Shown here: positions 4,175 through 62,728 of the stretch, piece by piece
Layout: every line of letters starts with the position of its first letter
Position numbering within the stretch: the stretch's first letter is position 1
Source: Hermatobates lingyangjiaoensis
Taxonomy: Eukaryota; Arthropoda; Insecta; Hemiptera; Hermatobatidae
Direction: 5' to 3'
Assembly (NCBI GenBank): GCA_026182355.1
Contig: JAPFBL010000229.1
Span: 130,001 to 194,000, forward strand
DNA: 64,000 nucleotides
Position numbers and translations under genes: made by a program
The notes under the pieces: generated by a model
What the model saw: the letters and a program-made list of their open reading frames with translations, nothing else
The model's database searches: none
Told to the model about the DNA's origin: nothing

Positions 4175-4670
4175 ATTTATATTAGAAATAGGTAAAACTG
4201 TCATACTTAGTAAGATGATCCTGGAGTTGTAGCGCTTTCGGACATTGTCCATCTTCGATCGCAACAAACCTACTGAACTGTTATATAGGGGGTTGGTTAT
4301 CTGTTAAGTCCACTGCTATCCTGATATTATTATTTTGATTTTATTTAGTTATTTTGATTTTTTTTTGGTTTTTAGCTATTATGTAGTTTGGGTTTTTTAT
4401 ATTTTTTAACTTCGTCATCCTGCCTGTCCAGTCGTCTTTTTATTTACTCTAAAAACCAAAAAAATCAAAGTAACTAAATAAAATCAAAATAATAATATCA
4501 GGATTGCAGTGGACTTAACAGATATATAACAGCTTAGTAGGTTTGTTGCAATCGAAGATGGACAACGTCCGAAAGCGCTCCAACTCCAGGATCATCTTAC
4601 GAGGTATGACGGTTTTACGTATTTCTAATATAAATCATACTAACCTCAGTGGTATTAACAATATGCATGT
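4175..4670. mobile_element. Foldback element with hammerhead-like arms and 11-bp target duplication
   Basis: This 496-bp element is a large imperfect inverted repeat: the arm at about 4175-4335 matches the reverse complement of about 4470-4635. AATCTAATTTG occurs on both sides (4164-4174 and 4671-4681), a clean target-site duplication. Each arm holds a hammerhead-like core; on the right arm, plus strand (4552-4580), it reads TCGAAGA, T, GGAC-aac-GTCC, GAAA, then palindrome AGCGCT. The loop (about 4395-4445) resembles the 3' coding end of PLE-1. The right end is TAACAATATGCATGT, shared with the elements at 20347, 43498 and 62178. Confidence 0.75.
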
Positions 4671-4681
4671 AATCTAATTTG

Positions 4682-7107
4682 GTAAAAAAAGTGAAAATAT
4701 GTCCTTGTGATATTGCATGAGGTTTAAGAACATATGGACCAAATAGTTCGCAAAGCAATTTAACACATCTCAAAGAATGAGTGGGAAAAGTAGAAATCGT
4801 TTTGCTTATTCCATTTGCTAATCTCATAAGACTGTAACGTTGCTAGTGAAATAACTGAACACTCTGATAATTTGGCAGAATTCATGAAATTCCAAAAGAA
4901 ATTTGTAACTTCCTAAAGAGGATTAATTTACTTTAATCGTGCATTATACAAATATGTTGTTTTTACTTGAAACATAGAACAAAATCTCAAAAGCAGGGTT
5001 TCATTCAGGTTAGAAATAACAAAAGTGTCTCCATCAGTTTCTGTCCATGGAATCTGATAGTTTGCAAAGATTATGATAAGCTGCTGTCAGTACTACTGGG
5101 AGTGAGAGGCATATGCAATGGCCATGCATCAGTTAGTTGCATAAATAATTCTATACAGGAATAACATACTAGAAGAATGCATACTAATTACATGACACTT
5201 TTGAAGACTTCTACCTGCACCATGGTTATTCAATCAAAGCATAATTAAGTATTCTACTTACACGATTTATAATGAAAAAATATTTCGGATAGATAATTCA
5301 TAATTTTTTAGATAATAGTACAAGCGTCCTCTCAATTCAAGTTGAAGGAACAGCTACCAACAAGCATTAAAAAATAGATAATTCTATTTTGGTGACAGCA
5401 ATATAGTTCAAATTCTAGTTAATGCAATTTTATAAAGAAAAAAATATTTTACTAAAACTTTTTACTAAATAACTCTCTTTTGTAATTTACAATATTAGTA
5501 CTGAAAGTTGAGAGTTTTTTTTCGATTTAGGATCGAAAAAGGATTAAATTATAAAAATTCAGATGTTGGATGGGTGGGAATTTAATTCGATTTGGCACTT
5601 TAGTGGATGCAGTGGGAGGGATTTTAGATTTCTGAGCAAGGTAGCCGACAGCTGGAAGCAGACCTCCCCTGTTTCCAGCTTTGTGCCCTCTCCCCTTCCG
5701 GAAAAATATGTCTTCAACTTAATTTACTGTTTCCATTCAAAAAAAAATATTACTTAGATTCAATTTAGAGAGATATTTTACTATAAAATGAAGGATATAT
5801 TTAATATACAGGTGGAACTGTGCTGATATTTTGAGTATTATAATCCTTGTCAAATAGTGAACACTGTCATATAAGGAATGATAGCATTATAGGTTTAATA
5901 GGTTTTCCTAATTTGGACTAGTTTTATGGTGTATAAATTGTACATTCACTAGATGTATAATATTTTTTATAAAAGTTAATAAAACAACAGTAACTAATTA
6001 CATTCTTATGAATCTCTGTTTAATCGATCATTTAAAAGCAGAACCTATAGATACGTAACTTTCTTATATATTCATAAAAAACTCACGTCACAGTAAAAAA
6101 ATACAACTCAAATGTGAGACAGTAACAAACTTTACATATTTTGATGCCTTCTCAGTTCATTTTTGAAGTTTGTTGGTGATGTATGCATAAAAACGGGTGA
6201 GTGAATCTTTGTATATTGAAAGGACTATAGTCAAGCTAAAGGAGACGTCGTTTGATTGATGGATGCTATCATAAAAAAAAAATATGATCCTTAACCCTGT
6301 AGAAGGTAGTTATCCCTCCTTAATCTACATTGGAACTTGCATAATCTACTTTATTGCTAAAAATTAATGTTATATAAATTCCTTGTTTTCTCTTCACGGA
6401 CTTGTTTTCAATTACCAGACGATTGTATTTGATTACGTAATATTAAACTAACATAAAGAATAACAGGAAACAAAATCTGGAAATGTTAGAGCCCTCTACT
6501 AAAGGTATACTGACAACAAACCGATTATTTGTTTTATTTTAATGTAGCAGTTGTTTTCATCTGGCTATCTACATTTTATCAGTTATAAGAAACATGAAAC
6601 CATTCATCAATCTTACATATTAATAAAATTACTAAATGAAAGGTCTGAACCGCATAGTTATCTTACACTCTGCGACTTTACCTGTCATATTGTACATAAC
6701 ACTGTTGTAACTAAATTCAACTTAAGATTTTATGTTCATTAATGATCTTCATAAATGCGCATAGAGAAGTCTTGCTCACTTTTATAGCTTTAGATATTAG
6801 TTGACAAAAATCTTTCTTCATTCATTGGCTTGAATACAGATATAATCTGATCAAAGGTTACTTACCACTTCTGCTAGCCAGAAATTCTGAATTATTCCTA
6901 TGTTGTCAAGTATAAATTAAGCAATATTAAGCTTTTTTAGAAGTTGATTAAAGAAGAAATCTAAGTGATGTTTTACATACTTTACTGAAATCTTTTTTTG
7001 AAGACCATGTATTGTTTACAGTTTCATTTGCAATGAACAGCGTGAACCAAATTAAGCTGTCAGCTTATTAAACTAAACTAAATACACTGGTCAGTGCTAC
7101 CTGGTCT
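4682..7107. other. No gene recognised
   Basis: AT-rich sequence. A G+C-richer patch at 5570-5705 gives a 64-codon frame without a known motif and without convincing splice sites. Confidence 0.55.
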
Positions 7108-7265
7108 CTCCTTTTTACTTTACTATAAGTAAACTGATTATCACAGTAATCATAGTGGTTATGAAAAAAAATTGATCTAAATTTTGACGAATTTACATAT
7201 TTGAGTTCCTTTCCAAATCAAACCCACTCAAAATATTGTCGTAAGTTTTCGTCATGTGAAGTTTT
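7108..7265 (+). repeat. Repeat R2 left-end fragment
   Basis: TTACTTTACTATAAGTAAAC, then ATGAAAAAAAATTGATCTAA, ATTTTGACGAATTTACATAT and TTGAGTTCC match 37899-37980. Confidence 0.6.
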
Positions 7266-13319: not shown

Positions 13320-13445
13320 CATATAGAAGAAGCGAGAAAACTTACTGGATCGATATTTCGAACTGAAGTTCGTCGTCAGAGAGAGAGTAGAAGGGAAGAA
13401 GAAGAGGTACGTGCGTTCACTTGTACCGGCAGAGAGCGACTGAAA
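13320..13445 (-). repeat. Hammerhead-like repeat fragment, family C
   Basis: The minus strand of 13350-13380 reads CTGACGA, C, GAAC-ttca-GTTC, GAAA, TATCGAT. Stem II is intact, but stems I and III are not obvious. GA-rich DNA and a TA run (13447-13460) adjoin. Confidence 0.5.
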
Positions 13446-13460
13446 AGTATATATATATAT

Positions 13461-13738
13461 ACTTTTTCGATGAAAATACGATCTGAAATGGACAAATACA
13501 GTTCAATGTACATAAAGAAACATAGAAATTAAAAACATACACTTACAGCCTCTAATATTTGGTTGAACCGTCTTGAGGAGAGATAAGAGAGGGAAACCAA
13601 GCGCACTGGTACAGAGACGGTTGGATACTCTCCAGTGCGCTTGGTTTCCCTCTCTATCTCTCCTGAAGACGGTTCAACCAAAAATTAGAGGCTGTAAGTG
13701 TGTGTTTTTAATTTCTCTATGTTTCTTTATGTAAATTA
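13461..13738. repeat. Foldback repeat, family C
   Basis: The left arm (about 13510-13612) and right arm (about 13630-13734) are inverted copies with a short loop; GAGGGAAACCAAGCGCACTG faces CAGTGCGCTTGGTTTCCCTC. The right arm has CTGAAGACGGTTCAACC AAAA, a decayed hammerhead-like core. A TA run follows. A single-arm relative is at 27131-27292. Confidence 0.7.
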
Positions 13739-13770
13739 AAATATATATATATATATATAATATATATATA

Positions 13771-19210: not shown

Positions 19211-19459
19211 ACGTTTCACGATGAATCACAAATACAGAACTAAGGAACAAACAGACCTACTGTCTCTAATTTTCAGTTGAAACGTCATCAGGAGAGTTGA
19301 GATAGGGACACCAAGCGATAGGGAGACCGGTCTCCAACCGTCGCTTCACAAGTGTGCTTGGTGTCTCAATCTCAACTCTTCTGGTGACGGTTCAACTGAA
19401 AATTAAAGACAGTAAGTCTGTTTGTTCCTTAGTCTGTGTTTGTGATTCATCGTGAAAGG
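19211..19459. repeat. Foldback repeat, family C relative
   Basis: TTTCACGATGAATCACAAA at the left pairs with TTTGTGATTCATCGTGAAA at the right. The arms continue through AACAAACAGAC.. and ..AGTCTGTTTGTTCC, AATTTTCAGTTGAAACGTCA and TGACGGTTCAACTGAAAATT. The right arm core CTGGTGA, C, GGTT-hairpin, GAAA is hammerhead-like. TA-rich ends. Confidence 0.75.
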
Positions 19460-20346: not shown

Positions 20347-20748
20347 AAGATATTATTATTAACCGTCATACCTCGTCTGTCGCTGGTGAAGTCGCCCGAC
20401 CGGTTTCGCAATGGCTACATCATCAATGGGACTAATGTTATCTTCTAAAATCACGGATATAAATACCTATTTTAACTCAATGGTGCCAATATATATGCCT
20501 AAATTTCCTACCTAACAGTTTTATTTTGTTTAATCTGTTTTTGTCTTTTAAACTTTAAGTCGTCTCTGTCCTGTCTGTTCTGTCGTCTTATCATGTTTTT
20601 TATTGGTTTAAATATTATATCTGCCTGGCGCTTAATTTCTTCGTTTATTGCAAAACCGGTCGGGCGACTTCACCAGCGATAGACGAGGTATCTCGGTTGA
20701 TAATAATATCTTATTTATTAACCTCTGTGGCACTAACAATATGCATGT
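20347..20748. mobile_element. Foldback element with hammerhead-like arms, 12-bp target duplication, nested in R2
   Basis: AATCAGTATTTT flanks this 402-bp element at 20335-20346 and 20749-20760. The arms hold CCGTCATACCTCGTC, then GTCGCCCGACCGGTTTCGCA and its inverse. On the minus strand of the left arm (20398-20427) the motif is TTGATGA, T (or A), GCA-loop-TGC, GAAA, palindrome ACCGGT, C, then GGG, which can pair with the upstream CCC. The centre includes a CTGTCCTGTCTGTTCTGTC run resembling PLE-1 DNA near 35650. The insertion interrupts a copy of repeat R2. Confidence 0.75.
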
Positions 20749-21290: not shown

Positions 21291-22001
21291 CATCAGAAGG
21301 TGGTTATTAAGTTTTAATTCCTCTTAAATTTTTTTTAAATTACATAATACAACATAATTTAATATGTCAAATGCTTAAAATTGTATTCTGTTATAATACT
21401 ATGCGGTATTATATATTGTATTGTGCTGTGCCTGGTAGTATTTGGTTGTTGAAAAGGATATTAAAGTCTATTTACATACTGTACAAATTCGTTAAATAAT
21501 AGGGGATGATTATATATGCAATATATATGCAAACCTAGCTTTGATTACATGTAGAGACTTCCATGAAACAGTAACAAGCTGCATCGAACTAAAATATCTA
21601 AAAGTATTAAGTGTGTCCCACGGTCTTCAGTGTGTCTAGTCATGCTATATGAAAACTGGCTGAACATTTTAAAACATTACAAAAACAAGTCGGTCAACAA
21701 ACTTTTAAATCTGCTGATATCAGATTATGCTATGGATAAAACCTTTGATTGCCACATATTGCATCCAGTTTAGTAACGGTGAATCCTGTGTCAGACTATT
21801 CAATACTCTGGTACTTTTTACAAAATTTCTTTTGATACAGAAAGAGTAAAATATTGACACGTGTTAACTTCTGTCTGGAAACTAAAACGAAATTTAATAT
21901 CTCCACTCTATATATTTAGGAAAATCATAGTTGTACCATTAAATAAAATTCTTCATGTGGACAGCATTTTAGTCTGGATAAATAGAATGTGTTTATTACA
22001 G
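21291..22001 (+). other. Intron upstream of the dpr-like exon
   Basis: AT-rich sequence leading to the acceptor; no second exon visible. The branch-point and pyrimidine tract are weak (GTGTTTATTACAG). Confidence 0.6.
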
Positions 22002-22163
22002 ATCACATGGGTGAGAAGAAGAGACTGGCACATTCTCACTTCAGGGCTCCTCACGTACACCAGCGATGATCGATTCCAAATGCTTCATCCTGACAATTCC
22101 GATGACTGGACTCTTCAGATCAAATTTGTTCAAAAGAGAGACAGTGGAGCTTATGAATGCCAG
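22002..22163 (+). CDS. Internal exon of a dpr / zig-8-like Ig-domain protein
   Basis: This 162-base segment (54 codons, phase 0 at both ends) is bounded by a TTATTACAG acceptor and a CAG|GTATTC donor. It encodes the second half of an Ig V-type domain. It opens ITWVRRRDWHILTSG, continues with YTSDDRFQMLHP, and ends DWTLQIKFVQKRDSGAYEC-Q. The D-x-G-x-Y-x-C motif holds the strand-F cysteine of the Ig disulfide; its strand-B partner would lie in the preceding exon, outside this window. The W-x-R-x-R-D and DDR/ER-F signatures are typical of arthropod Dpr proteins (defective proboscis extension response), which bind DIP receptors at neuronal surfaces; such genes are often named zig-8-like. The frame stays open upstream and downstream, but the splice sites fit the family boundary. 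No neighbouring exon was found, so introns of many kilobases are implied. Family membership is strong; the paralogue is not resolvable. Confidence 0.9.
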
Positions 22164-24562
22164 GTATTCAAGACAAATCTATCTTTTTTTCCTTTTCACT
22201 GGAACCAATAACGATGGGTGTCTTTCCAGCATTCTTCTACTTCTAGTTAAGATATATCTATTCATTTCTCTCATATCTAGATCAGGATGTTAGCATCATC
22301 CCAGCAGAGTATTTCTGATATCTTCTCGTTTGGTATTTCAATGAGCTATAACTTACACTGAGATAAAGTCTCTTATTAAAAGGTCTACAACTTACTGAGA
22401 CTGAACAAGAAATACTACTTTGCTCTGGCTAACAAAGCTAGTCATCTCAGTATTTCGTGCACAGTTGCAACTAGAGTCAACACTCAAAAATAATTATTCA
22501 CCTACTTCTGTATTGCTGCTTGTTATATTAACGACTTCGTATTTATAAGCAGCAAACGATTCCACTTTTATTATTTTATTTTATTTTTTAATTTTAAGAC
22601 ATACTGGACTCGTTAATTGGTTAAAGCAAGCAATAGATGGGCATGAAAGAGCGAGGTGTAAGGCTAAAATATATGCCAGGTATAGGTGTTAGAAAATAAC
22701 TGGACTGTGAGCCAGACCTGATTCTTGTTCATTCTTGTGAACTTGCAAGATCATCTTGGGTCTTGATTTTAATAAGCGATACTCCCACTGTTCGTATAAA
22801 TCTTCTGAGGAAAGTGTCTCAAATGTGTCTATTAATCAAGTCCTCATTCCTTTTTAATCATATCACAACCAAACCTGCCATAACTGTTGAGATTAAAGTG
22901 TAGAGTTAATGGCACTTCCTGCAGACCTCAGAGATCTGAGTCATTCGGGTTAGAGTAGAGTGTGGCCCTACTTTTCTGATTCATTGTGACATCACTGATA
23001 TTTCATTTATTCCACTTATAAAATGTTTTATAACTTTTTAACATTTGTCAAACTTATAAAACATAGTTTTAAATAAGTTTTTTTTTTAAATTGCGATCTA
23101 ATATTCTGTGGTGAAGACATATTTCTTTTTACATTACTGTTTTATTTAATAAGAAATATGAAGCTGTAAATCTTCAGGATAACAGATTCAAATTAATAAC
23201 TATTTTGTAGCAAAAAATGATAATCTCGCATTTTTTAGATAGAAATACACGTGAGAACTATGCAATAAGCTTTTTTCCCTCACCAGAAATCATAAACTGT
23301 CATACATCTTTATAACATATCAAATCCTATTTGTGGAGTCCAAGCAACGACTAATGATTATCCCCGCGCAGTATCGTGAAGTTTGTGATTAGACATCCAT
23401 ATCCCAATACTGCTGCCTTTACATTGTGGGATTAGTGGCACAATGTGGCACAATATTTCTGCTTCAATTATGACTAAGCCTGTCTCTGCTGAAGATGTTA
23501 AATGTGCGATTAAATAAACATACTAGTGATGTTATATACTCAATTCACTGATCAACATTATGTGCTCGGATAATGATGTCTTCGGATAGTGTAATGTCAT
23601 TATTTTCAACTCTGTTTTCACTAATATTTATTAGAAAACTAGAATATTTCCCACCTTCTTCTTGAAATCTAATATTGCGAGTTAAATAAAATTTAATATA
23701 TTTGCGCTACAAGTAAGAACCTTTGATCCAAGAATTATAGACGTCAGAGTCACTTCTTTCTTGACAACTGCAAGAAACTTGCCTAAAAATCACCACTGTT
23801 TACAGTCAATATTCCTCTGAATGATTCATTATTATTACATATATCTCTGCGAGTCAGATTGACTTTTTCAAAAGTTGTTTTAGTCATGATTGCACATTCG
23901 TCCGAAGTAATAATTTTTGCTGCCCTTACTAACTATTTTTATCAAAATTAAAAAAATGATTCTTGAATGTAGAATGTGCTGTTCTACCTACCACCACCAG
24001 TAAATGTAGCACTAATTTCTGAGGAGGTTACAGCCAATGCACTTTATCCTGAACTCCTTAATTTAGAGAGAATTAGTTTCACTTACAAGATCTTTCCTGA
24101 GCCTTCTCTATAATTTTTATTGAAATAGATATTTCAAAAAGAGAAAATATAGCCATTATGACAAAGCGTTTTTCGATTAATTATATAACTGTATACTGTT
24201 AATATTTTACTTATATTAACTTGATCATTTTGAAAACTTCTAGTAATTATAATTAATATCGTTTGTTGGTATATTAAATAATCATTCCATATTCTCGTCA
24301 ATTATTTATTAAATTTCCTCTTTCTAAATTTGTTATGGTAAATATGCAAAGAAAGGGCCCCCCCTCCATCTGAAGTGTCCAGCATCTATGTATCGTACAC
24401 AGGCCACAAATTATAATGAAATAATTATAATTTAGACCAAAAAACTGATAACATTTAATCTGCTTGATGTTCAAAATCACTTTATGATAATAAAAAGGCT
24501 TCATCTTTATACTTTTTCTTTGTTAGGTCATTTTATTAGGTTCTGAGGCCCTATTGCAACAA
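22164..24562 (+). other. Intron downstream of the dpr-like exon
   Basis: Starts at the GTATTC donor. No following dpr exon (the family's next exon would continue the Ig domain past YECQ) was found. Sequence is unremarkable. Confidence 0.6.
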
Positions 24563-27490: not shown

Positions 27491-27630
27491 CAATTTACTT
27501 CTTCTTCTGAGAACGACCACCATAATGGTTAAAAATATTGAAAAGTGAGTCCTTTGTTACGTTTCTTTCTATGTGTCACAGTTTATTTGAAGTGTTGTCA
27601 GTTCTTCTGGATCGCATTTCGTTTATTACA
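27490..27630 (+). repeat. Hammerhead-like repeat unit, family D
   Basis: CTTCTGAGAACGACCACC, a GACCA-like hairpin and AAAATATTGAAAAGTGAGTC are followed by TTGTTACGTTTCTTTCTATG, TGTCACAGTTTATTTGAA and ATTTCGTTTATTACATATAT. The inverse unit is at 45818-45940, so this is a dispersed family. The core is decayed (CTGAGAACGA for CTGATGAACGA). Confidence 0.5.
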
Positions 27631-30782: not shown

Positions 30783-31107
30783 TCATTCTGAGGTAAAATA
30801 AACAAAGAAAAGTCTTCACACAAATGAAGTTTTATTCAACAACAACAACGCGTTTCGAACACTTTGTGTTCATCATCAGGAAGACACCAAAGGATGTGGT
30901 GATGAAGAATTGGTCCACTAAAAACAACTAGTAGGAAATGAAAGGAGATTTCCTTCTAGTTGTTTTGACAGGACCAACCCTTCATCACCACATCCTTCGG
31001 TGTCTTCCTGATGATGAACACAAAGTGTTCAAAACGCGTTGTTGTTGCTGAATAAAACTTCATTTGTGTGGAGACTTTTCTTTGTTTATACATTTTACCT
31101 CAGAATG
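30783..31107. mobile_element. Foldback repeat with strong hammerhead-like arms
   Basis: CTCATTCTGAGGTAAAAT at the left is matched by ATTTTACCTCAGAATGAG at the right, and the arms stay paired inward to about 30930/30970. Each arm carries CTGATGA, T, the hairpin GAACAC-aaa-GTGTTC, GAAA and the palindrome ACGCGT (minus strand 30849-30880; plus strand 31008-31041, where GAAA has become AAAA). A single-arm fragment of the family is at 29756-29825. No coding capacity. Confidence 0.7.
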
Positions 31108-34029
31108 AGTAAATACCACACAATTATGGATTGCACAACTAATGATTTAAAAATGATATACTTATTCCAGTTATATTTTTGAAGAAAATCATATACAAAT
31201 CAAATATGTACAAGGCATGTAATGTTCAATGTTTTGAAATTTTAATTGCAAGTATCCTTAAAAAAGTAATTTGGACTTGTAAAAATATTCTATAGTAGCC
31301 TTTGCTCAACTTTATCACGAGTAAATGCAATAAAAACAAGTTAACTACTAATAAAGATGGTTTTGACTTTAATCTTGCTTTAGTTCAAAGATATTATCAA
31401 ACGGATGGTAAATATTATAAAGTTATATTTGATCAGTGTAGTGATTTCATTAATTGTATTGCGACTATATCTATGTGATTAGTAAAACAAACTAGCATAC
31501 ATTGATATAGAAGAATATGACAAGTTATTATTATTATTGTCACTGTTATTATTGTTATTATTATTATTATTATTGTTATACAGAGACACTTAAACTCATA
31601 AGATTCGTGTACACCGCTACTACATCCGTTCTTTGGTATTGCATTCTCTCCTTTCTGAAATCAACTTTAGATTTTATGTTCTCTACTCAACTTCATCATT
31701 ATCCTGAGGGAACTAAACCTTGCTTATACTGATTTTAGGTATGTTTTGTGAAAAACCTTGTGTCCATGACCTACACATTTTTGACTCATTGGTATGCTAA
31801 ACTTAGAACAACAAGTCCCCTTTGTTTCAGATAAGGAAGATAACCGAAGTTATTATTATAGTCACTTTGACGTACTTTTAGAATATTTTATAAACGGTAA
31901 TGTATCTGGTAGCATATAACAAATTAATAATGTTCCATTTTATTAAACTGTTTTATGCTTTATCTCAAAAACAGTTATTTCTATTTTGAACCAATGTCAA
32001 TTATCTAAAAATTGTCTTTTCTTTCATAGAAGTATCTAAAAGATACATAGAACATATCTACATAGAACTATTGAAAAATAGTTCAATAACATATCCATGC
32101 TAAAGGAGTACAGTTTGTCATTTCTGCTGAAACCCTTTAGCACACTTATCAGTGTTGTTTATTAAGACTTCTATGAATAGTGTCAATTATTTTGGGATAG
32201 CATACAACCATGCCATGTATGGTTACATACAAACAACCGAGCCATGCGTGTGATACCATCGGCTCTGCGACAGTAGTAAGAGAAATTTTCTAGAGTCAAG
32301 TTGTTGATTTGTGATTTAGACCCAGCGATATAAAAAAGAATTTCTTCCATTGCAGCAGTCCGATTCTGACATTGTCACTGAAACTCTTAAAGTCGTTTCT
32401 AGTTTATACATTAAACTAAAATGACTCTGTGAGGATTAATACTTCTTGGACATTTCTTGCATTCTTAATTAGAAAGATATTTATTTACCTTCTTTCCCTT
32501 GAGAAAGGTATAAGGACCTTTTTGCAAAATTTAAATTCAGATTATTCTCTCCCGATCTTTCAACAATTATGAGTGAATTCTGCATGATTTCAAAGGTATT
32601 AACATCTAGCGTGGTTTTTTTTTTCTTATAGCTATTTCATCTTCCTATACTTGCGTATAGCAAAGCTGGTAATTTACCAGTATCCAATAGGTCATCTACT
32701 AAAATGTCCTAACTATTCTGGAGACAGAACAATTGTGAGAAAAGCCTTTAGTAGTCATAGTACCAGCTGAGGTAGATCAGTACTGCCTCAGGACTATACT
32801 TACTGACTTACTTATACTTATAAGTATTAGTATATAAGTATACTTATACTTACATATACATGACTATACAGTACTGAAATGCTGTAATAGTACCACTTAT
32901 TACAGTAATCATTAATGCATTCGGTTGTTTTAATCCATAATTTAGTTCTTGGATAAATACACTTGTGTATTAGAGCTGATTCAATGGAATTGAGAGTATA
33001 TTTTCAATATATCTCACGCCGTCTGGAATAATTCATTGCACAGTGTCCAATTAGGTTCAAAAATTCTTTTTGGAACTTATTCAGTTTATTTGCTTCTTTG
33101 ATATGGAAATTGTTCCTTATAAAGGAATTTATTAATCAAAAAGCTTGTTATCATAGACAGCAATTAATAGTATATTGCTCGTCTAATATGTAACCTCATA
33201 GATATTTGTAAGAAGTCAGTACCTAATAAAAAGTGTCAGGTTCAGATAAATCCCCAACGAAGTATCTTAATATAAACTATCCATTCTGAAATAATGAACA
33301 AAATAGTATACTTTTCATACTTCAATATTACATATTTAATTCAATATTACATAATTCAAGAGAATTATGTTCATAGACTTTGAATATATCTGTCATTTTG
33401 AGTCATTCAAGGGTGCAACATGTAGTTTGATTTGATGACTAGTTAGAAAACTATCTACCATACCATTGAAATTATCATAAAATATATGTTTTATTGGCGT
33501 TCGTTTGTATATACAAGAATTGTATTCTTCTTTCATCTGATATTAATTTATTAAATATTTAAAATATTTTTTTACTAAACAATTAGAGAAGAATTTTCTT
33601 CTACTCGAATCATTTAAAAATTTTCTTTTTTATTGCTATATTGCTTTTTAGTTCAGATTAATATTTATGAATTTTTTAGAATTTGCTAATTTTAGATTAA
33701 TGTTTTAATGTTTTAATGTTTTAGTTTAATGTTTGGGCAAAATCTAATTGTTCTCAATGTACCTGCTTGACGTTCAAAATATATTTTCTAAAATAACAAA
33801 TGTATGACATTGCCCCTTTTTGTTAAAATGATATTGAGAAAAATATCCTACATCAAGTGTTTTTCTAGTTAAAATTGTATCTTGAACAGTAAAACATCGC
33901 GCCACGTATCATCCTTACAATCTTTGAGATTCAATTAGTCAAAATTTGTACAATTATCTAAAAAAAAGTACCTTATTAATTGATTTAAAAATTCTTAGGA
34001 TTTTTTTCGTTTAATATTTCTTGAAACAT
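31108..34029. other. No gene recognised
   Basis: AT-rich sequence; an ATT/GTT low-complexity run at 31525-31577 and a small TATACTTATACTTA-type direct repeat around 32800-32860. Confidence 0.6.
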
Positions 34030-35734: not shown

Positions 35735-35953
35735 TTACTTTGTATTATTTAAATAGTCCTTAAGATGTTCTTTAAATCTTACTTTTAGGGTTCTTCCCGT
35801 CTGTCCAATATATATTTGATTACAATCATTACATTTTAATTTATATACTCCGCTTTTTTCATATTTATTAATTACATTTTCTGTTGAGGAAGTTAATATT
35901 TGACTTATAAAATTATTAGTTTTAAATCCTACTTTGATGTTGTATCGTTTCAT
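35735..35953 (-). pseudogene. PLE-1 GIY-YIG endonuclease segment
   Basis: The frame holds SGVYKLKCNDCNQIYIGQTG, then RTLKVRFKEHLKDY. The G-V-Y, Y-I-G-Q-T-G-R and R-x-x-E-H motifs are diagnostic for GIY-YIG nucleases of PLEs, and the C-x2-C after VYKLK is the usual zinc-knuckle-like insertion. A frameshift separates it from the tail segment, where MDLLQTGQKGQRLNITEQIE follows. Confidence 0.85.
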
Positions 35954-36715
35954 TAAGTTTGCTATTTTATGACTAATATTTCCTAGTTATGTTATAGACA
36001 CGTATTTATTATTGCTAGGGCTTTCGTATTTGTTATTAATTTTATTCTTTCTATTTTTTAATATTTATCTATTAAGCTTGCATTATAACCGTTATTCGTT
36101 GCTATTTTTTTAATTATATTTAATTCCTTATTATAGTTGTTTTGATTCATCGGAATTCTTATTAATCGATCTATCATATACTGAAAGGCAGAAATTTTTT
36201 GTTGCTTTGGATGAATTGAAGAATTACCATATGTACAGTTACATCGGTCGCGGTTGGTTTTCTATATATTTTAAATTTAAGTTTATTTTCGGTTTTTTCA
36301 ATAGTTAGGTCTAGAAAATTTATTTTGTTTAATTTTATTTCGTGAGTGTATTTAATTTGATTATTTCTCGAATTGAGATAATTTTTTATATTTATTATAT
36401 TCTCTTCGTTAGGGTTATTTATGATTAGGAACTTTTATTTATCCACGTATCTGCTATAATGAATTAAATTTAATTTCTCTTTTAAAATATTGACAAACAG
36501 TCCTTCTAGTTGCTGTAAGAATATTTCTGATAGAATAGCAGAGGTTGAGCGTCCCATTCCTAATTCATCTTTTGCTAAATAGAACTCGTTATTAAATTTA
36601 AAATAGTTTTGTTTTAAAGTTGTTGTTGTTAAGTTTATTATTTCATCTATATCTTTACTCTGACCATATTGCTTACCTGTTTTTTGTATTAGTTTTATTA
36701 CTTCCGAACCGGAGA

Positions 36716-45291: not shown

Positions 45292-45475
45292 AATGATCAA
45301 AACACAATACCAAATGGGAAAACAAGTGGTCTTCGTCCGAGTCAACAACCCAACTGGACTCTGACGAAGACCGCTGCTTACGGTTGAAAGATCTAAGTCT
45401 TCTTTTCTCATTTCATATTGTGGTTTGATCATTGATTGTTGTTTCTCGTGTTTATGTGAAATCTTTATATATCAT
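45291..45475 (+). repeat. Family A terminal repeat, foldback copy
   Basis: The right unit (45345-45475) is hammerhead-like core, then TTCTTTTCTCATTTC, TTGTGGTTTGATCATTGATT, GTGTTTATGTGAAATCTTT and a TA run. The left unit (45291-45345) is a partial inverted copy (ATGATCAAAACACAATACC...). (TA)n blocks lie on both sides. Confidence 0.7.
45357..45399 (+). ncRNA. Hammerhead-ribozyme-like motif, family A (best copy)
   Basis: The order is GACT, CTGACGA, A, hairpin GACCG-loop-CGGTT, GAAA, GATCT (with the preceding A forming palindrome AGATCT), A, AGTC. GACT pairs with AGTC as stem I, GACCG pairs with CGGTT as stem II, and the A...T pair around GATC is a minimal stem III. This matches a type I hammerhead with a vanishingly short stem III, which would act as a dimer through the palindrome, as described for animal PLEs. 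One extra base (A) lies between the box and stem II, unlike the textbook core. Confidence 0.65.
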
Positions 45476-45644: not shown

Positions 45645-45772
45645 AACTCTCAGTTGGGTTTTTGACTCTGACGAAGACGCTTGTTACGGTTGAAAGATCT
45701 TAGTCTTGTTTTCCCATTTCTTATTGTGGTTTGATCATTGATTGTTGTTTCACGTGTTTATGTGAAATCTTT

Positions 45773-46224: not shown

Positions 46225-46390
46225 CTTCAAATTACACAAAGCACGACACAGAAAAGAGAATAAAAAGAACACTTACAGAATTCAATATTTCGAACTGTTG
46301 TTCGTCATCAGGAGAGTAGACTAGAAGAGAGGACGAAGTGAGAGAGATCTCCCCACGTCGAAGAACGGAGCGCGAATATATGGAGATATA
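46225..46390 (-). repeat. Hammerhead-like repeat unit, family C
   Basis: Minus strand of 46288-46311: CTGATGA, C, GAAC-aaca-GTTC, GAAA, then TATTGAATTCTGTAAGTG. Stem II is perfect. The upstream GAGAGTAGACTAGAAGAGAG is like the 13380 unit. Confidence 0.55.
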
Positions 46391-52970: not shown

Positions 52971-53016
52971 GTTACTAGTCGACATGTTTCGAATGTACCA
53001 CATTCATCACCAGGAC
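52971..53016 (-). ncRNA. Hammerhead-ribozyme-like motif, 3' end of PLE-2
   Basis: On the minus strand this reads CTGGTGA, one T, a six-base-pair hairpin (GAATGT / ACATTC), GAAA, the palindrome ACATGT (sharing the last A of GAAA), C, then GACTAG. The GTC before the box pairs with the GAC after the C, giving a short stem I. The core differs from CTGANGA by A6 to G. It sits where PLE terminal repeats with minimal hammerheads are expected. Self-cleavage is inferred, not shown. Confidence 0.6.
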
Positions 53017-53236
53017 AATAATTAAAATAACAGTGAGTTATTCAGTTTTTATAAAGAAAGTGGATTATGGTGGGTTAAGGTAGGGTGGTTCAACCCACCT
53101 ACGACCTGGCTAATCTGGGTTGGTCTGTTGGATGTTTATGGCTAGTTACTTTTCTTGTATTACGAGTATTATTGATTTATCAATTGTGATTTAAAATGGA
53201 TCCTTTCTCTTGCAATAATTTTCGTGGTGCTGGTTG

Positions 53237-53476
53237 TCATCTCTCTGGTGAGTTTTGGCTTATGTTCTGATGCAGTATGTCAATTTGGACACCGGTGGAA
53301 AGGTGCATACATATTCTTTTGCACAATAAAGTTGTAGTTATACCTATATATGAGCTTTTACGGGCTTCGCAGCTCCCGATATTACATGAATACTCATGTA
53401 ATAGTCTCTCGTCTGATGTTGAAAGAAACTTGCAAGAAAGTGCCCTAATTAAGTATAATTTTGAAAAACTAATCAA
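53237..53476 (-). pseudogene. PLE-2 GIY-YIG endonuclease fragment
   Basis: In frame are YSCNIGSCEARKSSYIGI followed by TTTLLCKRICMHLSTG. The layout (C-x5-C, then S-Y-I-G, then K/R-R-x3-H) matches the GIY-YIG domain found at the C-terminus of PLE proteins, which nicks target DNA. It lies about 280 bases 3' of the linker segment on the same strand and about 220 bases 5' of a hammerhead-like motif. Confidence 0.75.
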
Positions 53477-53760
53477 TATAAGTCATGGGTTATTTAAATT
53501 AGATGAATTTTAATTCAAGGGATAGTTAAGTAAATTGGACCTGGGGGAGGTCTAGGAAATATGCGAGTATCTTTGGACATGAACTCTGACCAGATAGTTG
53601 ATTCAAATAATATAGCTTAATAATTTGTTTTTTTTTCTACTTCTCTTTTAATTATTATTGAATTATAATTCTATTTAATTTTGTAGGGTATTTCTTCTTA
53701 TCAAGCTATATTGTCATATTGAGTTTCCAGCTGTTTTGTTTCCTTCCTTCTCCATTAATT

Positions 53761-54548
53761 TTATTTTAGCTTCTCAGTTTTTACTTTGTTTACTCTCTGA
53801 TGACATACATTGAAAGCCCTCAGAGCATTTATTTCTATTGTTTTCCTTTTCCATTGTGGTTTAAACTTCATTGATTGCATCACGTGTTTATTTATTGTGA
53901 TTTTTCTGCATACATGATTGGTTTCTTTTGACTCCATGACGCTTGGAGTATTCTTCCTGATCAAACTGCCTTTTAAAGGGCTTTGGTAATAAGTTATCAG
54001 TTATAATGCATTTAACATTGCTTTTTAATACACATTCATCATTCTTATATTCATCCATATACTGGTTCTTGTAGTATAGTTTGTGATTTGTGACTGTTAT
54101 TAGGCTCACATTGACAGGGATGAACTATTCTCCAGGTAGCATTTTAGAATATAGTCAAAATATTTTTGAATAACCATTGTTAATTAGCTGGGTTAAAGAA
54201 ATATTCCAGTTAAAAAGGTCCCAGGATAAAGTGGTCTTATAGGTTCTGTGAATCAGGGATCTGATAGTGAAGTCTTCATACCGTTGAGGTCATTCACTCT
54301 TCGCATTTAGGTAAGTTGCTGTGTTGGTTGGTTTTCTATAGATAGAAGTTTGCAGTACGTTATTTTGTTGGTTGATATTAACTTCAAGGAAGTTTTTTTT
54401 CTTTTCTATTTCTGTTTCTATTGTCAATTTCAGGTAGGAGTTGTTTTCAAATGCTCATTTTTGGTTTATTAATTGTACACAACTTGCTACAAAAAAGCAA
54501 TCATGTACAAATCAACGCTAGATAGAAGGCTTTAATTCAGAACTGATG
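53761..54548 (-). pseudogene. PLE-2 RT C-terminal / linker remnants in several frames
   Basis: This stretch connects the RT and endonuclease parts of PLE-2. Minus-strand frames show FLEVNINQQNNVLQTSIYRK with RKPTNTATYLN, then NHKLYYKNQYMDEYKNDECV and INALRAFNVCHQRVNKVKTE. The FLDVxI-x-YRKPT and L-x-RAFxxC patterns are PLE features downstream of the RT catalytic box. Stops and frameshifts separate them. Confidence 0.7.
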
Positions 54549-54549
54549 T

Positions 54550-55032
54550 TTAAGATTTATTTTCAACGTAGCACATATAATAGTTTGCTAATGTGACTCC
54601 TAGGGGCGAACCCATGGCCACTTCGTCTATTTCAAGGTACATCAAACCATCTATGTGCGTGAAGGGACTTCTTCTCGTACATGCTCGCAGAAAATTTTCC
54701 ATATCCTTCCTGCTGATGGATGCAGGTGCCATGTTTCTCTGATTTAAGTAGTGGCAGTCACAAGTAATTTTAATCGTCTCTTCTACTAGAACATATATAA
54801 ATAATGATTCAAGATCGAGAGATCCGACAGATCCTTCTGGGTTTATAGTTTTCACTACGTCAAGGAAATCATCAGTTGATTTTAAAAAATAATTCGCTGG
54901 CATATATAGAGTGATGGGTTTATTTAGTTGTCTGGCTACAGCGTAGGTGGGCGTGGTAACCTGCGAGATTATAGGGCACAGTAGATATCCTGTTTTATGT
55001 AGCTTAACTGTGCCATAAATATATCCTGGAGT
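54550..55032 (-). pseudogene. PLE-2 reverse transcriptase fragment
   Basis: An open stretch of about 160 codons lies within PLE-2. Residues visible in order are the GTVKLHKTG box, the PIISQ and TPTYAVARQLN segment, a SLDLESLF motif in place of SLDVxSLF (first catalytic aspartate retained), CTRRSPFTHIDGLMYLEIDEVAMGSP (given here only as the segments TRRSPF, YLEIDEV and AMGSPLG), and LANYYMCYVEN. The downstream YxDD catalytic box is not in this frame. The start is an arbitrary in-frame methionine, because the true N-terminus is lost. Confidence 0.85.
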
Positions 55033-55037
55033 GCATA

Positions 55038-55168
55038 TATATAAAGATTTCACGTAGACATGTGAAATAGCAATCAATGATCAAACCACAATATGAAATC
55101 GGAAAACAAGACTAACATGTTTCAACCGTAACAAGCGGTCGTCATTAGAGTCAAAAACCCAACTGATC
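55038..55168 (-). repeat. Family A terminal repeat, variant palindrome
   Basis: On the minus strand the core (55161-55110) is GACT, CTAATGA (one mismatch to CTGATGA), C, GACCG-loop-CGGTT, GAAA, palindrome ACATGT in place of AGATCT, T, AGTC. CCCA/TGGG pairing in outer stem I is kept. The change of one six-base palindrome to another is the kind of substitution expected if the palindrome matters. It abuts PLE-2 on one side and (TA)n on the other. Confidence 0.7.
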
Positions 55169-56540: not shown

Positions 56541-56577
<37 letters not shown>

Positions 56578-56578
56578 T
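56541..56578. repeat. (TA)n microsatellite
   Basis: A TA run on the left of the long hairpin; its partner on the right is at 56855-56876. Confidence 0.95.
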
Positions 56579-56607
56579 CAAATACTTAGGTAACAGTTCT
56601 TCGTTAA

Positions 56608-56855
56608 TACATGTGAGATTGAATTTACTGCCTATTGTTTTTTAATTAATTTCTTGGATAACTTTTCCAAATCCCTTAAGAGTCTTTTAAATTCACCATG
56701 AACTAGGTACATCAACTCACCATTTTTTGGTGACATAAAAAAAATGGTGAGTTGATGTACCTAGTTCATGGTGAATTTAAAAGACTCTTAAGGGATTTGT
56801 AAAAGTTATCCAAGAAATTAATTAAAAAACAATAGCCAGTAAATTCCATCTCACA
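56608..56855. repeat. Near-perfect long hairpin
   Basis: Arms of about 115 bases (56608-56733 and 56741-56855) are nearly perfect inverted copies around a loop of under 10 bases, with ACCATTTTTTGGTG at the centre. Example pairing: CATGAACTAGGTACATCAAC with GTTGATGTACCTAGTTCATG. Both outer ends reach a GAGATTGAATTTACTG-like sequence and then (TA)n. One arm has a 29-codon open frame of coiled-coil-like composition (FKRLLRDLEKLSKKLIKK), perhaps a PLE N-terminal scrap; that is a guess. Confidence 0.85.
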
Positions 56856-57391
56856 TATATATATATATATATATATTTGTAAAATTTTAGAGCAACACTT
56901 CATTTAGACATATTTCGTTGAATAGTTGACCTTATTTCGCGGAAGTCATTTTTTTAGAAAACAAAAAAAAAACAAAATAATTAGAAAAGAAAATAACTTC
57001 AATCGGTTACAAATTGCAGAAACAATAATAATTAAACCAAATAAACGTACAATAAATATTCAAATAGGTAGCAGCGAGAGAGCGCTCAAATTATATGTCT
57101 CTGATAACACCAGGAGAGCCCTACTGCCCACTCCTTGAACTTTTTTTTTAATGCTGCTGTAAGCTTGATCTTAATTCCAAACTTTAGCACCCTATAAATT
57201 AATAGTTTACAAAAAAAAAATCAAAATAACATCACATTTTGGAAATAATGTGATCTATCATTTATGCAGTATTAACAAAACAAAAAAAATTGGAATACTT
57301 ACAATCTTCGGCCAAATTGTAGTAGAATCAGAATTTGAAAAATAGTATAGCCTGTAGTGTGCCCTGAAACAACCACATATACATATACATC

Positions 57392-57510
57392 ATAAAAAGC
57401 TTTCACATAAACACGTGAAATAACAATCAATGATCAAACCACATAAAGAAATGGGAAAACAAGACTAAAGACTAGTCTTGTTTTCCCATTTCTTATTGCG
57501 GTTTGATCAT
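57392..57510. repeat. Family A foldback hinged near the predicted cleavage site
   Basis: The left arm is the inverted 3' body (CACATAAACACGTGAAATAA through GGGAAAACAAGACT). The right arm starts AGTCTTGTTTTCCCATTTC and runs to GTTTGATCATTTATATATAC. The arms meet around 57463-57476 at the AGTC that would be the 5' end after hammerhead cleavage, with only a few bases between. The ribozyme core itself is absent. Confidence 0.7.
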
Positions 57511-58887
57511 TTATATATACATCATGAGAAAAAAAAAAGAAAAAAATGTACTTTGGTGACATCAAAAAAAAAGCACATCCGTCAAAATGTTGACTTGTTT
57601 TTTTTCTCTCTAACAAACATTATGTTAGAGATAAGATTGATTATGGTTAAATGTATATAATAAAGTGGAGTATACGCCAATATAGATTTTGTCTTATTTC
57701 AATTACGATTACATCTCATTTATTTAAGTATTATGATAAAATTCTGTTTAAATGAATAAGATAGAATTTTCGGTAATCTTTTGTTTTATATAATATTCAG
57801 AGAAAGTAAATCATAATGGATGAGTGAAATGGGAATCTTTTAATTTCAAGTCTGAAGCAAAACCCTGTGAATAGAAGAAACAAGCTTCTCTTGTTGCAAC
57901 TAACAATGCACTCGATTCCATAAATCTTGCTCTTTTTGCTTCTTAACGTTTTTTGATTTTCTACTAAATCATCAAACTTGCGATTCTGTTATTTCATAAA
58001 AGCAGAAATATAAATCTTCTTAAAATAAACGTTTTATTTACCCGTTCTTTGTACAAAGTTAATAGAATAATTTTTAAAAATGTGATTGTTTTTGGAATAA
58101 ATTTATAAAAATTTAGTGTTACATTTCATTAAAGTACATTTGAGATTGATTTTTTTGTTAAATGATATTGAAGAAATGTTTCATGTGCCATGCGTAACTC
58201 CAAACGCTCTCAAGTATGATGGACACAGTGCGATTATATCATCATATTGTCTGAAGCATCGCATTTGACTCAGAAATGGCTTAACCTCAGTCATTTTCCC
58301 TTTCCTATCATCTTTTACATAACTTTTTGTATATTGTTCATGACTTCTTCACTCATTTGTCATCTTATCAGTGCTTACATAAAACTTATCATGTTGTGTG
58401 AGCAAATCACACCTAGTTAGTTGATTTCTTTGCTAAGTGGCATGGTTATTGTTAGTCATCAAGATTTAAAGTTTAGATCTTGATAACGATTCTATTTCAA
58501 TAGTCTTTCTTCAAACTTTATCTGCTCTTCTAAAAAGATTTTGTTTTGTGGTTCCCATTTAACTGATACAGAAATAACAAGAACAACATATGAATATCGC
58601 AAATGAGGTTATGTGCATAAAACAATATATAGATCAATTTAATCATATAAATTACATCACTTACAATTAATTTGATTATTTGTCTTGAGGTTGGTTAATT
58701 TCAGAAGAAATTTCTGTGAATTTCCTCCTGTACCCTTAATGTGATGGCACACTCTTTCAATTTCAACACAAAACAAATAGATTCTGGATCTTTTGTGGCT
58801 TACCAAATAGTCTAATATGACTGGTTTGAGTATTTCAGAAATTACCAACTTTTCTGTGATAAACAATACTTTTTTTTTAAATACATG
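57511..58887. other. No gene recognised
   Basis: AT-rich sequence with A-runs near 57530-57570; nothing supported. Confidence 0.6.
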
Positions 58888-59700: not shown

Positions 59701-60241
59701 TTTAATAAAAGTAATGAAAAAGCATCTAAAAGTACTGAATGAACACTCATTCGAAAATATCAAATTAATATTGACTATGCACAAAGGAATATAAAATGAA
59801 CTGGAAGATACCAGCAGAAAGTCACATATCCAATACTGAACATATTCAGAGCAGCGGTGTTTTTCAGAGCTATTGTCATCCTTTTATAAAAATGCTAAAA
59901 TTAAAACATTGCAAAACGATTTCCACAGTAGGCGTAGACATTTAGCACTTTTTATCAGAGGAACTTGCTACACTAACTCTACCGCAATTCAACTTTACGA
60001 AACGTTACAAGCATATAATGCTGATTCAGTTTAATTTATGAAGTTTAGTGACGTTTAGTGAAGTTTAGTGAATTGATTAATATTTATTATTTCATTATTA
60101 AAAGCTAATATATTTCTTATATTAAAATAAAATAAACATAAAATTTTATATTAAATTTTTTTTTATTTTTTACAGTAAAACAAATATATGTAAAGTATGA
60201 CAAAAATAAAACGAAACACGATCCAAACTGGACACAATACA

Positions 60242-60481
60242 AGTTCAAAATTCAAGAAGAGTAACACACAGAGTAAGGAAACACACTTACAGACTCAAAT
60301 TTTCGGTTAATCCGTCTTCAGGAGAAAAGAGAAAGGGAGACCAAGCACGTTGTAGACGCAACGGCAAGTAACAGTAACTTGGTCTCCCTTTCTATTTTCT
60401 CCTGAAGACGGGTTAACCGAAAATTTGAGTCTCTAAGTGTGTTTCCTTACTCTGTGTGTTACTCTTCTTGAATTTTGAACT
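60242..60481. repeat. Foldback repeat, family C relative
   Basis: AGTTCAAAATTCAAGAAGAG and CTCTTCTTGAATTTTGAACT are the outer ends. The arms are paired almost throughout, with a loop at about 60352-60385. The right arm core reads CTGAAGA, C, GGGTTAACC, GAAA (60404-60423). The left flank ACACGATCCAAACTGGACAC resembles flanks of the 13 kb and 19 kb units. Confidence 0.8.
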
Positions 60482-61739
60482 CTTATATAGTATATAACCT
60501 TGAAAAGTCAGTAAAATACTTCCATATCAAGCTGTCAAATTAAACGGAACATTTAAGTTTAAAGAAAATGTTATCAAGATTTGAAAGTATTAGAAACGTC
60601 TTGTGTCTTTTGTCAGGCTTAAAGAGAAGGGATTTGTTTTAATTTGCATTTGGTTTCCCTTAACTCAGAACTTTGCACCGTCTTGTACCCCCCTCTCTCC
60701 ACGACAAGCCGACTGACACTCTAAATGTCCTCCATAATTGTTTCCCTTTATTTGAGTTGCCAGTCAGATCCCATAATAAAATGTTTCACTAATCTTTTCA
60801 TATGTACTGCACTAGAACACATCTGCGTTCTTTGTGTACGCAAGAATTAAATTTGTATTTTATTTCAAAGTTCATATATTTTAAAATAACCATTTTAACG
60901 AGTTCATAATTATAATATCTGTTGTAGATACATAGCAGCAGTTGTACATCAATAATTTTATTTTTAAAAATTTCTTATTCTCCTTTTAAAGTTTGGATTT
61001 TATTAAAAGAACTAAAAATCAGAGTGATTGAATTTTATTAATGTAGAAATATTGAGCTGACAGGGATACAGGGTTGTGTGAAGTCTGCGAGAGTTGCATT
61101 CATTGTGGAAGAAATGCCAAGTCAAATGAATATATTATACTGCTCGGGGCAAGTATAAATCAATCAGTGCCTGCAAACATTGGAACTGTTTGAAACACGT
61201 TTAAAACTCCTACAGAAATATTTTCCTTTGTTTCTACTATAATAAACTATTGTTTAATATAGTAAAATGAAAATATTTGAAATATAGTTTAGTAGTCACC
61301 TTCACTAAAACACATACATATAGTTTTCAACATTTCCAAACAAACTATATTCCTGACAATTTTATTAGTACTTAGTGAATAATGACGTAAGTATTGTTGT
61401 ATTAAGTACTATATAAGTATCATTTACCATTCGGAATGGTTTTCAACATGGTGTGAACATGAAAAATAAGAGTTCATGCTTGGTATTTTGCATTAGAATA
61501 AGAACTAGCAGGATTTCTAAGAACAAGAAGTTGATGCCTTTATTTAAAGGCCTCAATAGCTTGTTTTTATACCAAAGATCTGACAGGAAACACGACATAA
61601 CTTTACTTTGCCCTATAGTCTACTGGCAGTCCTTTCGATGCCACGAGCATTAACAACAAATAATCATAATAATTAATTTGACAGCCCTTTTGGCTTAAGG
61701 TACTGCAGTATCTTTTTAGCCATTTCTAATTTTAGAGTG
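60482..61739. other. No gene recognised
   Basis: 60640-60770 is less AT-rich (GTACCCCCCTCTCTCCACGA); no exon or repeat identified. Confidence 0.5.
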
Positions 61740-62135
61740 TCGGTTCTAAAATGTATGTTCCATGGTTGGGTATGTTTAAAATTTTGCTATAATATTGCTT
61801 AAAGTATTGCTATCATTATTAGGATTGAGATAGTTGAATTAAAATAAAACAATTTAGTAATTTTATTTTAAACTTAGTATTATAATAATTATACTTCTGG
61901 CAGGTGAAGATAGGTAATAAATTTAAGAAAATAAATGAAATGAAAATTAATAGATTTCATATTTGACCCATCTTCACCTGCCGGATGTATGGATATTATA
62001 ATGCTTAGTTTAAAATCAAATTACTAAATTGTTTTATTTTAATGCAACTATCTCACTCCTGTTAATGATAGCAATAATTTAAGCAATATTATAGCAAAAT
62101 TTTAAACATACCCACCCATGGAACATAAAATTCGT
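61740..62135. repeat. Foldback sequence upstream of the 62178 element
   Basis: The stretch at about 61750-61925 is the inverted copy of about 61967-62130 (shared landmarks: CACCTGCCGGATGTATGG against CTTCTGGCAGGTGAAGA, and CCCATGGAACAT against TGTTCCATGG). The right arm is duplicated at about 59110-59300. No target duplication was identified and no protein is encoded. Confidence 0.7.
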
Positions 62136-62177
62136 TTTTTTTTTGCCATACGTTGTCTCCTTAAATAAGTAATATTT

Positions 62178-62728
62178 AAGATAATATTATTAACCGTCAT
62201 CCCTCGTCTATCCCTGGTGAAGTCGCCCGACCGGTTTCACAATGGCTGCATCATCAATGGAACTAAACTTATGTCCTAGAAAAGAATTAAACAAATAAAT
62301 TTATTTTAAATAGATATTTAGATGCGTGATTTCTACAGCTTAAGTTTAGTCCAATTGATTTGTTTTTTAAATTGAGGAAATTAACGACTTGTATATGCGT
62401 TCTCTGTAATGTCTAAAAAAACAAAAGTTAATTAATATTTACTATCTTTATTCGACCTTACGGATAACCTAATAATTTATTATTTAGTTTGATTAAATAA
62501 TATTAGTTATAATAAATAAGCAACACTTCTGTCTTATGACAATCACGAGTAACTTCAACAAAAACATGCACTACAATGGTACAAAGATGATGAACAATGA
62601 TGATACCATTGATGATGCAGCCATTGCGAAACCGATCGGACGACTTCACCAGCAATAGACGAGGTATGACGGCTAATAATAATATCTTATTTACTAACCT
62701 CTGTGCCACCAACAATATGCATGTATTT
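62178..62728. mobile_element. Foldback element with hammerhead-like arms, 11-bp target duplication
   Basis: This 551-bp relative of the 20347 element is flanked by AAGTAATATTT at 62167-62177 and 62729-62739. The right-arm motif on the plus strand (62609-62637) reads TTGATGA, T, GCA-loop-TGC, GAAA, ACCGAT (a mutated ACCGGT). The left arm has the inverse at 62219-62256. The right end is CAACAATATGCATGT. Its interior (about 62225-62585) also occurs at 59335-59695. Confidence 0.75.

Follow-up and report, generated by a model that had tools for sequence, protein, structure and literature searches.

The contig JAPFBL010000229.1 of Hermatobates lingyangjiaoensis (C229 below) carries many short repeats that differ in sequence and share the outline of a hammerhead ribozyme. 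The stretch analyzed here, called the window, is 64,000 nucleotides long (C229:130001-194000; about 30% G+C, in a genome of 909.9 Mb). Each repeat combines a box CTGANGA, one extra base, a family-specific hairpin, GAA, a palindrome of the form A-N2-T or A-N4-T, and a following base other than G. The original prediction had proposed that one such architecture recurs in otherwise different repeats; inspection of the eight loci that it named bears this out, and their contents essentially match its description.

Bit scores quoted below for single copies come from a custom covariance model, R2, built from 14 local motifs (three in the window, the rest from its flanks). R2 does score these loci, but it was built partly from the same loci and its scores are not independent. 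Family F1 has a minimal hammerhead with a stem I of 5 bp at 45351..45404 (+; CTGACGA-A-GACCG/CGGTT-GAA-AGATCT-A, hairpin GACCG/CGGTT at 45361+; 24.4 bits), a copy in direct tandem with it at 45658..45710 (+; 26.9 bits), and a copy with box CTAATGA and palindrome ACATGT at 55105..55158 (-; 33.7 bits). F4 has a copy at 52972..53023 (-; box CTGGTGA, hairpin GAATGT/ACATTC at 53013-, ACATGT, then C; 40.3 bits, E 2.2e-10), which lies 3' of an endonuclease-like open reading frame. F2 forms a head-to-head inverted pair at 30783..31110, with a left arm at 30838..30889 (-; CTGATGA-T-GAACAC/GTGTTC-GAA-ACGCGT-T, hairpin GAACAC/GTGTTC at 30879-; 38.4 bits) and a right arm at 30998..31049 (+; AAAA for GAAA; 28.3 bits); the right arm alone has a 3' extension, and 12 edits separate the centre from the closest of 20 others.

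Two families have GAAC/GTTC hairpins, at 46311- and 13379-: F9 at 46275..46321 (-; CTGATGA-C-GAAC/GTTC-GAA-ATAT-T, then GTAAGT; 39.7 bits) and F9b at 13343..13389 (-; CTGACGA-C-GAAC/GTTC-GAA-ATAT-C; 34.5 bits), both used in R2. F14 has a head-to-head inverted pair at 60237..60486, its left arm at 60288..60331 (-; CTGAAGA-C-GG..CC-GAA-AATT-T; 33.2 bits) and its right arm at 60392..60435 (+; 33.8 bits, used in R2), and two further head-to-head pairs, each with a different centre and approximate ends, at 13507..13746 (13577-, 13664+) and 19221..19440 (19291-, 19381+). The F10 head-to-head pair at 4168..4642 (4258-, 4552+) has GGAC/GTCC at 4552+ and AGCGCT. F13 is seen as a single copy with approximate ends at 20390..20440 (-; TTGATGA, with C3 changed to T, then ACCGGT and C) and as a head-to-head pair at 62170..62696 (62257-, 62609+) with GCA/TGC at 62609+. 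A decayed F7 copy lies at 27497..27548 (+; 23.5 bits).

Seven of the eight hairpins are thus as first described; the remaining one, at 20426-, reads GTA/TGC with one G-U wobble rather than GCA/TGC. The six-base palindromes reported after GAA (AGATCT, AGCGCT, ACCGGT, ACGCGT, ACATGT) are all present, except that 13379- and 46311- have the four-base ATAT, and the next base is C, T or A at the named loci, as had been stated. A box with at most one mismatch was also expected at 4552, where the letters are TCGAAGA, with two; another copy of that family, at C229:74521, has CTGAAGA. Many copies had been missed: BLAST with seeds of 14 families finds 31 in the window, decayed ones included. Against 100 shuffles of the window, the pattern CTGANGAN{4,26}GAAA occurs 13 times where 2.93 are expected (largest shuffled count 8; 0/100 reach 13), the whole architecture six times against 0.46 (largest 3), and the whole architecture with a stem I of at least 3 bp three times against 0.05 (largest 1). 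R2 gives 12 window matches at E 3.3e-4 or better, and the 200 kb of flanking contig has 71 with E no higher than 1; the model was built from part of these matches. Dimer folding energies were not informative.

Core, stem II and the extra base

Genome-wide, the pattern CTGANGANGN{6,16}CGAAA, which itself fixes the core letters that it counts, has 143,250 exact matches (71,364 forward, 71,886 reverse), and the reversed control pattern has 615 (302 + 313). From these we took the 60 places that head the list for contig C1, irrespective of structure, 57 of them on the plus strand. A palindrome begins exactly at A15.1 in 49/60 loci; shifts of 2 and 4 give 16 and 18 of 60, probably through self-overlap of ATAT and AATT, and further shifts (5-13) give 2 to 9. 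The palindromes include ATAT 17 times, AATT 12, ACATGT 5, ACGT 5, ACGCGT 4, AGGCCT 3, AGCT 2 and ATATAT once; eleven kinds have been counted overall. Position 17 in the 49 palindrome loci is T 24 times, C 13, A 10 and G 2 (non-G in 47/49), and N7 is free (T25 A23 G7 C5 in 60 loci). The repeats follow the hammerhead core rules, C3 U4 G5 A6 N7 G8 A9 and G12 A13 A14, with A15.1-U16.1 and H17.

Stem II is at least 3 bp in 44/60 loci. At the free base pairs 2 and 3, the 44 distinct hairpins are paired at 0.83 as against 0.486 when partners are swapped, and none of 10,000 swaps exceeded 0.659. Stem I reaches at least 3 bp in 25 and at least 2 bp in 41 of the 49 palindrome loci. The 60 loci fall into 24 hairpin clusters, the largest with nine members, or about two dozen hairpin types. 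An alignment (A3) of 20 distinct 27-base cores of equal length, drawn from the genome pattern list plus two local ones, has 89.2% of its cells paired and a covariation of 0.620, compared with 0.193 when shuffled and 0.011 to 0.148 when slid; double changes occur at five of six pairs, and a single pair can show as many as four standard pair types or more.

A further set of 18 family rows was chosen by hand for box, GAAA and repetition; some are sub-branches of one family and so partly related, and the cluster members 58726, 121229, 133145, 182922 and 185398 (some unpaired) and 11 singletons were left out. On these rows stem II pairs at 0.907 as against 0.695 partner-swapped (0/5000), stem I, on 16 of them, at 0.771 as against 0.53 (0/5000), and the palindrome stands at A15.1 in 16/18, other tested starts giving 0 to 3. 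Stem II thus covaries as it does in a type I hammerhead, and the claim that covariation reflects selected structure is supported both by the 60 loci, unselected for pairing, and by the 20 rows of A3.

In the canonical hammerhead no base separates A9 from stem II; here one almost always does. In the local set, the window plus 200 kb of flanking contig with 254 kb of known bases, the core pattern whose stem is closed by G and C is found with zero, one, two and three extra bases 0, 26, 7 and 0 times (1/1/0/0 in the sequence read backwards). A stem II of at least 3 bp directly before GAAA starts at offsets 0, 1, 2 and 3 in 0, 30, 1 and 0 cases (1/1/2/2 backwards). Because pairing at offset 2 is seen only once, the seven matches with two extra bases probably reflect stems that start with GG. 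When stem II was permitted to start at any of three offsets, a scan gave 18 instances with a stem I of at least 3 bp, and 18/18 use offset 1. The extra base, nearly constant in presence among the local cases, is C in 32, T in 22 and A in 6 of the 60 loci; a genome count of CTGANGAGN{6,16}CGAAA is expected to fall near the control level.

A splice-donor-like motif, GTR[AT]G[TG], lies 8-26 nt after G12 in 30/60 loci and in 6/60 of a reversed control, and it is distributed by extra base as C 26/32, T 3/22 and A 1/6 (examples stand 3' of 46311- and 60321-). In some families splicing may take place immediately downstream of the ribozyme. That the motif might be a start-codon device was also considered, ATG in the box or across A9-x-G10.1 being present in 37/60; it was rejected on early stops seen by eye in several families.

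Head-to-head arms and their centres

The 14 family seeds find 104 copies in the local set, some decayed, or one per 2.4 kb. Adjacent copies of the same family less than 600 bp apart are head-to-head in 25 cases, tail-to-tail in three and tandem in two (n=30), whereas adjacent copies of different families are head-to-head in four, tail-to-tail in five and tandem in six. The 25 head-to-head pairs span nine of the 14 local families; three of them, with 8 to 16 bases between boxes, are less certain. A run (AT)5+ stands 60-160 nt 3' of the box in 36/104 copies and at 3.3% of 5000 random places.

F2 has been followed through the genome with a query of 331 bases, itself palindromic, for which there were 2445 first-look candidates; among the matches listed, 82 fall at 41 places, every place matched on both strands and 40 of them near full length. 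Twenty fetched copies and the window copy make a set of 21 copies and 42 arms. The arms have a nearly constant 5' end, and of the two in a pair one stops at CTCAGAAT and the other continues through GAGTAAATACCACACAATTACG. This 3' extension, of which the query held only the first few bases, is on exactly one arm in 20/21 copies, on none in one and on both in none; three more F2 pairs in the contig stretch behave alike, for a total of 23/24. In 17 pairs from six other families, read by eye, one short and one long arm are seen in 14 (F14 4, F1 4, F10 3, F6 2, F5 1), the pairs F14 114221, F1 175633 and F7 120802 being unscorable, so that one-sided extension has been seen in six families: F2, F1, F14, F10, F5 and F6.

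All 21 F2 centres are distinct strings, and their fillers often repeat bits of the arms, including short inverted arm copies. The nearest other centre is at least 8 edits away in 14/21 and within 5 edits in 4/21. Arm identity is 0.898 between copies, or about 10% divergence, and 0.916 within a copy. At that divergence some 5 edits would be expected in 50 bases, fewer than the 8 or more observed, so most centres have separate origins, although this is not demonstrable for every one. The majority of pairs were probably newly formed during insertion, from two complementary DNAs (cDNAs) started at two sites.

At 57377-57528 (-) two F1 arms lie head-to-head with a 7-base filler and, by eye, both start at the predicted cleavage site (AGTCTTG...). 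It looks like a product of reverse transcription that ran to a 5' end cut by the hammerhead. Reverse transcripts that stop at the predicted cleavage site were sought more widely, but about this one locus was all that came up, too small a number to build on. Beside one F2 copy elsewhere (L103 532-1222), mariner-like transposase reading frames were recognized by eye.

Hammerheads, proposed dimers and insertion

The minimal kind of hammerhead is reportedly due to Cervera and de la Pena (2014) and to Lunse, Weinberg and Breaker (2016/17). In Penelope-like elements it is described as having a type I core, a reduced helix III with a palindromic terminal loop, and a proposed dimeric cleavage (PMC7761336, PMC6466107), the double hammerhead forming through a palindromic stem III (PMC6466107, PMC7229834, PMC7761336). 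By such accounts minimal hammerheads number thousands per animal genome (PMC7761336); in a coral over 6000 motifs, minimal or canonical, fall into 16 families, and the axolotl has 126,247 motifs of the retrozyme type (PMC7229834). The present repeats agree with these descriptions in type I core, reduced helix III, palindrome, dispersed copies and pseudo-long terminal repeats (pLTRs), and differ in the extra base after A9 and in the 143,250 exact cores of one genome, a comparison drawn from what citing papers say of the Penelope hammerheads. Extra A after A9 is published for a viroid: the plus-strand hammerhead of Chrysanthemum chlorotic mottle viroid likewise has an unpaired residue there (PMC3705267), A in that case and mostly C or T here. 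The non-LTR retrozymes of animals, as characterized in PMC7229834, are also non-autonomous, hammerhead-bearing and present in very many copies, but they form head-to-tail tandems with canonical helices, whereas the arms here are head-to-head (two tandems among 30 close same-family pairs), minimal, and provided with an extra base.

In layout the repeats resemble Penelope elements. The published arrangement of inverted pLTRs with a tail on one, head-to-head being most frequent (PMC3846280), is the one found in these repeats, which share with the Adineta vaga elements of that account head-to-head inverted pLTRs, a single tail and palindromic junctions; here the head-to-head form occurs in 9/14 local families and the one-sided extension in six, mostly with no recognized open reading frame. 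For Poseidon of Anolis (PAc), the Penelope protein is reported to cleave and extend both target strands and to start at two adjacent internal RNA sites (PMC11167929). The present repeats share with PAc a candidate hammerhead in the region of the pLTR or the start of the open reading frame, and would also share two initiation sites and extension of both target strands; PAc differs in being autonomous, and in vitro its ribozyme depended on protein.

What the letters themselves establish is a core with an extra base, a covarying stem II, a palindrome at the stem III site, exact cores in excess of 10^5, head-to-head arms, and in many families a short stem I. We are accordingly confident, short of certainty, in reading the repeats as short, mostly non-coding Penelope-like copies, consisting of pLTRs and a tail, with a 5' minimal type I hammerhead that is likely to be active as a dimer. 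The hammerhead reading in the original prediction is supported by covariation and by the core rules, and its link to Penelope by a GIY-YIG domain at 35738-35986 detected with Pfam and by the pLTR-tail layout. This is a known kind, the minimal dimeric Penelope hammerhead, here very numerous and with a regular insertion signature.

Several observations weigh against that reading. Stock covariance models report none, and for such models this amounts in effect to one of the outcomes that the original prediction had said would refute it: Rfam release 15 gives no hammerhead for the window, whether the limit is the gathering score or E 10, and none for the 20 small loci tried out of the 60; RF00163 has no match over the genome, with 73 of 122,588 first-look candidates scored (it has none in 14 control genomes either). 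The reduced stem III and the inserted base are, in our view, the reason for this silence; a ribozyme variant that is very common can escape the stock Rfam models. In F10 (the 4552 family) and F13 (the 20426/62609 family) stem I is not paired directly beside the core, and the F13 window copies seen have T in place of C3. Coding Penelope pieces adjoin few copies, and six 3-kb F2 flanks compared with eight window protein pieces gave nothing better than E 0.18; homology among the few matching F2 long flanks ends after tens of bases. Because flank homology stops early and no protein matches, the F2 copies look short and non-coding, and most copies seem not to be full Penelope elements. A head-to-head pair puts one ribozyme on each strand beside its own antisense, so that folding could be blocked. 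One-sided extension would be expected also if whole pairs had moved, only the differing centres speaking otherwise; the 4/21 centres within 5 edits are at about the level of mutation alone, and an arm's own partner is its nearest arm for only 6/42 F2 arms.

How dimer and insertion might fit together can be outlined. A single RNA would be unable to close stem III; in the ATAT, AATT and ACGT families A15.1-U16.1 is the only pair that it could fit in there. A double hammerhead, which would cleave after position 17, could form by way of the palindrome between two RNAs from one family or between two pLTRs in direct orientation on a single RNA. At insertion an AT-rich target would be cut, and each of its strands would prime reverse transcription, starting at one or the other of two sites that lie 3' of the ribozyme; the cDNAs would run to the 5' end of the RNA and their 5' ends then be joined with filler. 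That the arms are nearly constant, the centres variable and one arm long would follow from two cDNAs made on two strands and from two sites, and the (AT)n bias (36/104) fits the AT preference described in PMC11167929.

Other origins for the pairs have to be weighed against this scheme. Fold-back, in which a single cDNA or antisense RNA primes itself, as proposed for rotifer Penelope, is possible if doubtful: variants found in exactly two of the 42 arms share one copy 10/41 times (chance 1/41), minor alleles are common to both arms 10 times as against 3.7 when permuted (68/5000 as high), and the fillers hold short inverted copies of arm sequence. Fold-back alone, however, gives no 3' extension on one arm, seen 23/24 times, and the minor allele is on one arm only in 37/47 instances, some of which later mutation accounts for. 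We find it unlikely that the inverted pairs are of old standing and transpose as complete units, in the manner of foldback elements, which would leave their layout uninformative on insertion. The recurrence of one long arm in nearly every F2 copy read and the similarity of a few centres (4/21 within 5 edits) agree with it; the 14/21 centres at least 8 edits from any other, against some 5 per 50 nt predicted from arm divergence, do not. Foldback elements moving whole had been the first reading of the inverted repeats, and the centres argue against it for most F2 copies, not for all. Least credible by far is one ancient repeat family whose drifted copies inherited their pairing without selection, since the swap tests (44 distinct hairpins; 18 rows) and the pair types of A3 need compensatory change, even though many copies do come from a handful of large families (24 clusters in 60 loci, the largest of nine).

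There remains the question of what the palindrome is for. It might mainly link two template RNAs for two-sided insertion, cleavage being secondary or lost, which we rate as improbable. The palindrome varies by family, in eleven kinds, and keeps its self-complementarity at one fixed place; insertions are often arm pairs with unequal 3' ends; and in one published case, as recounted in PMC11167929, catalytic mutants left insertion in vitro unimpaired. Against this, the catalytic core letters are kept although a mere dimer site would not need them (a weak point, given that the sampling patterns required those letters), and self-priming has also been offered for head-to-head Penelope pairs (PMC3846280). 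A more specific form of the idea, also unlikely, is that the palindromic stem III would act as a family-specific linkage of RNA dimers, the two template RNAs, both from one family, priming on opposite strands of a single cut target and from separate initiation sites, and their cDNAs then being joined head-to-head. If it were true, the ribozyme would be a pairing device in the service of insertion, and the purpose of minimal hammerheads would be explained.

On the preferred reading of short Penelope-like copies with a dimer-active hammerhead, the rule of head-to-head pairs with one long and one short arm, together with mostly different centres, would be a genomic footprint of the mode of insertion. 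The roughly 143,000 exact cores, among 60 of which some two dozen types of hairpin were counted, offer natural variation for comparing structure, dimer specificity and insertion.

Coding fragments and other features

The GIY-YIG domain at 35738..35986 (-; Pfam 26.5 bits, cut-off 22.6) belongs to what is here the second Penelope-type element. Inverted repeats at 34075-35160 and 38043-39964 flank this element, and there is no R2 match there. A candidate Penelope-type reverse transcriptase fragment lies at 54553..55080 (-), and a GIY-YIG-like endonuclease fragment, recognized by eye and perhaps of the same element, at 53240..53482 (-); neither has a Pfam match, and the pieces at 53240-55080 are put down to Penelope by their motifs.

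Further long near-perfect inverted repeats, in which no clear core was seen, occupy 2781-2934, 56607-56860, 43651-43871 and 61749-62132. A transposon-like open reading frame with a DUF4817 helix-turn-helix domain is found at 28587-28982 (-; 40.2 bits). An exon of a dpr-like immunoglobulin-domain gene lies at 21858-22208 (+); its best matches are to fly Dpr (6nrw_A, E 2.8e-22), and a nematode protein is listed as well.

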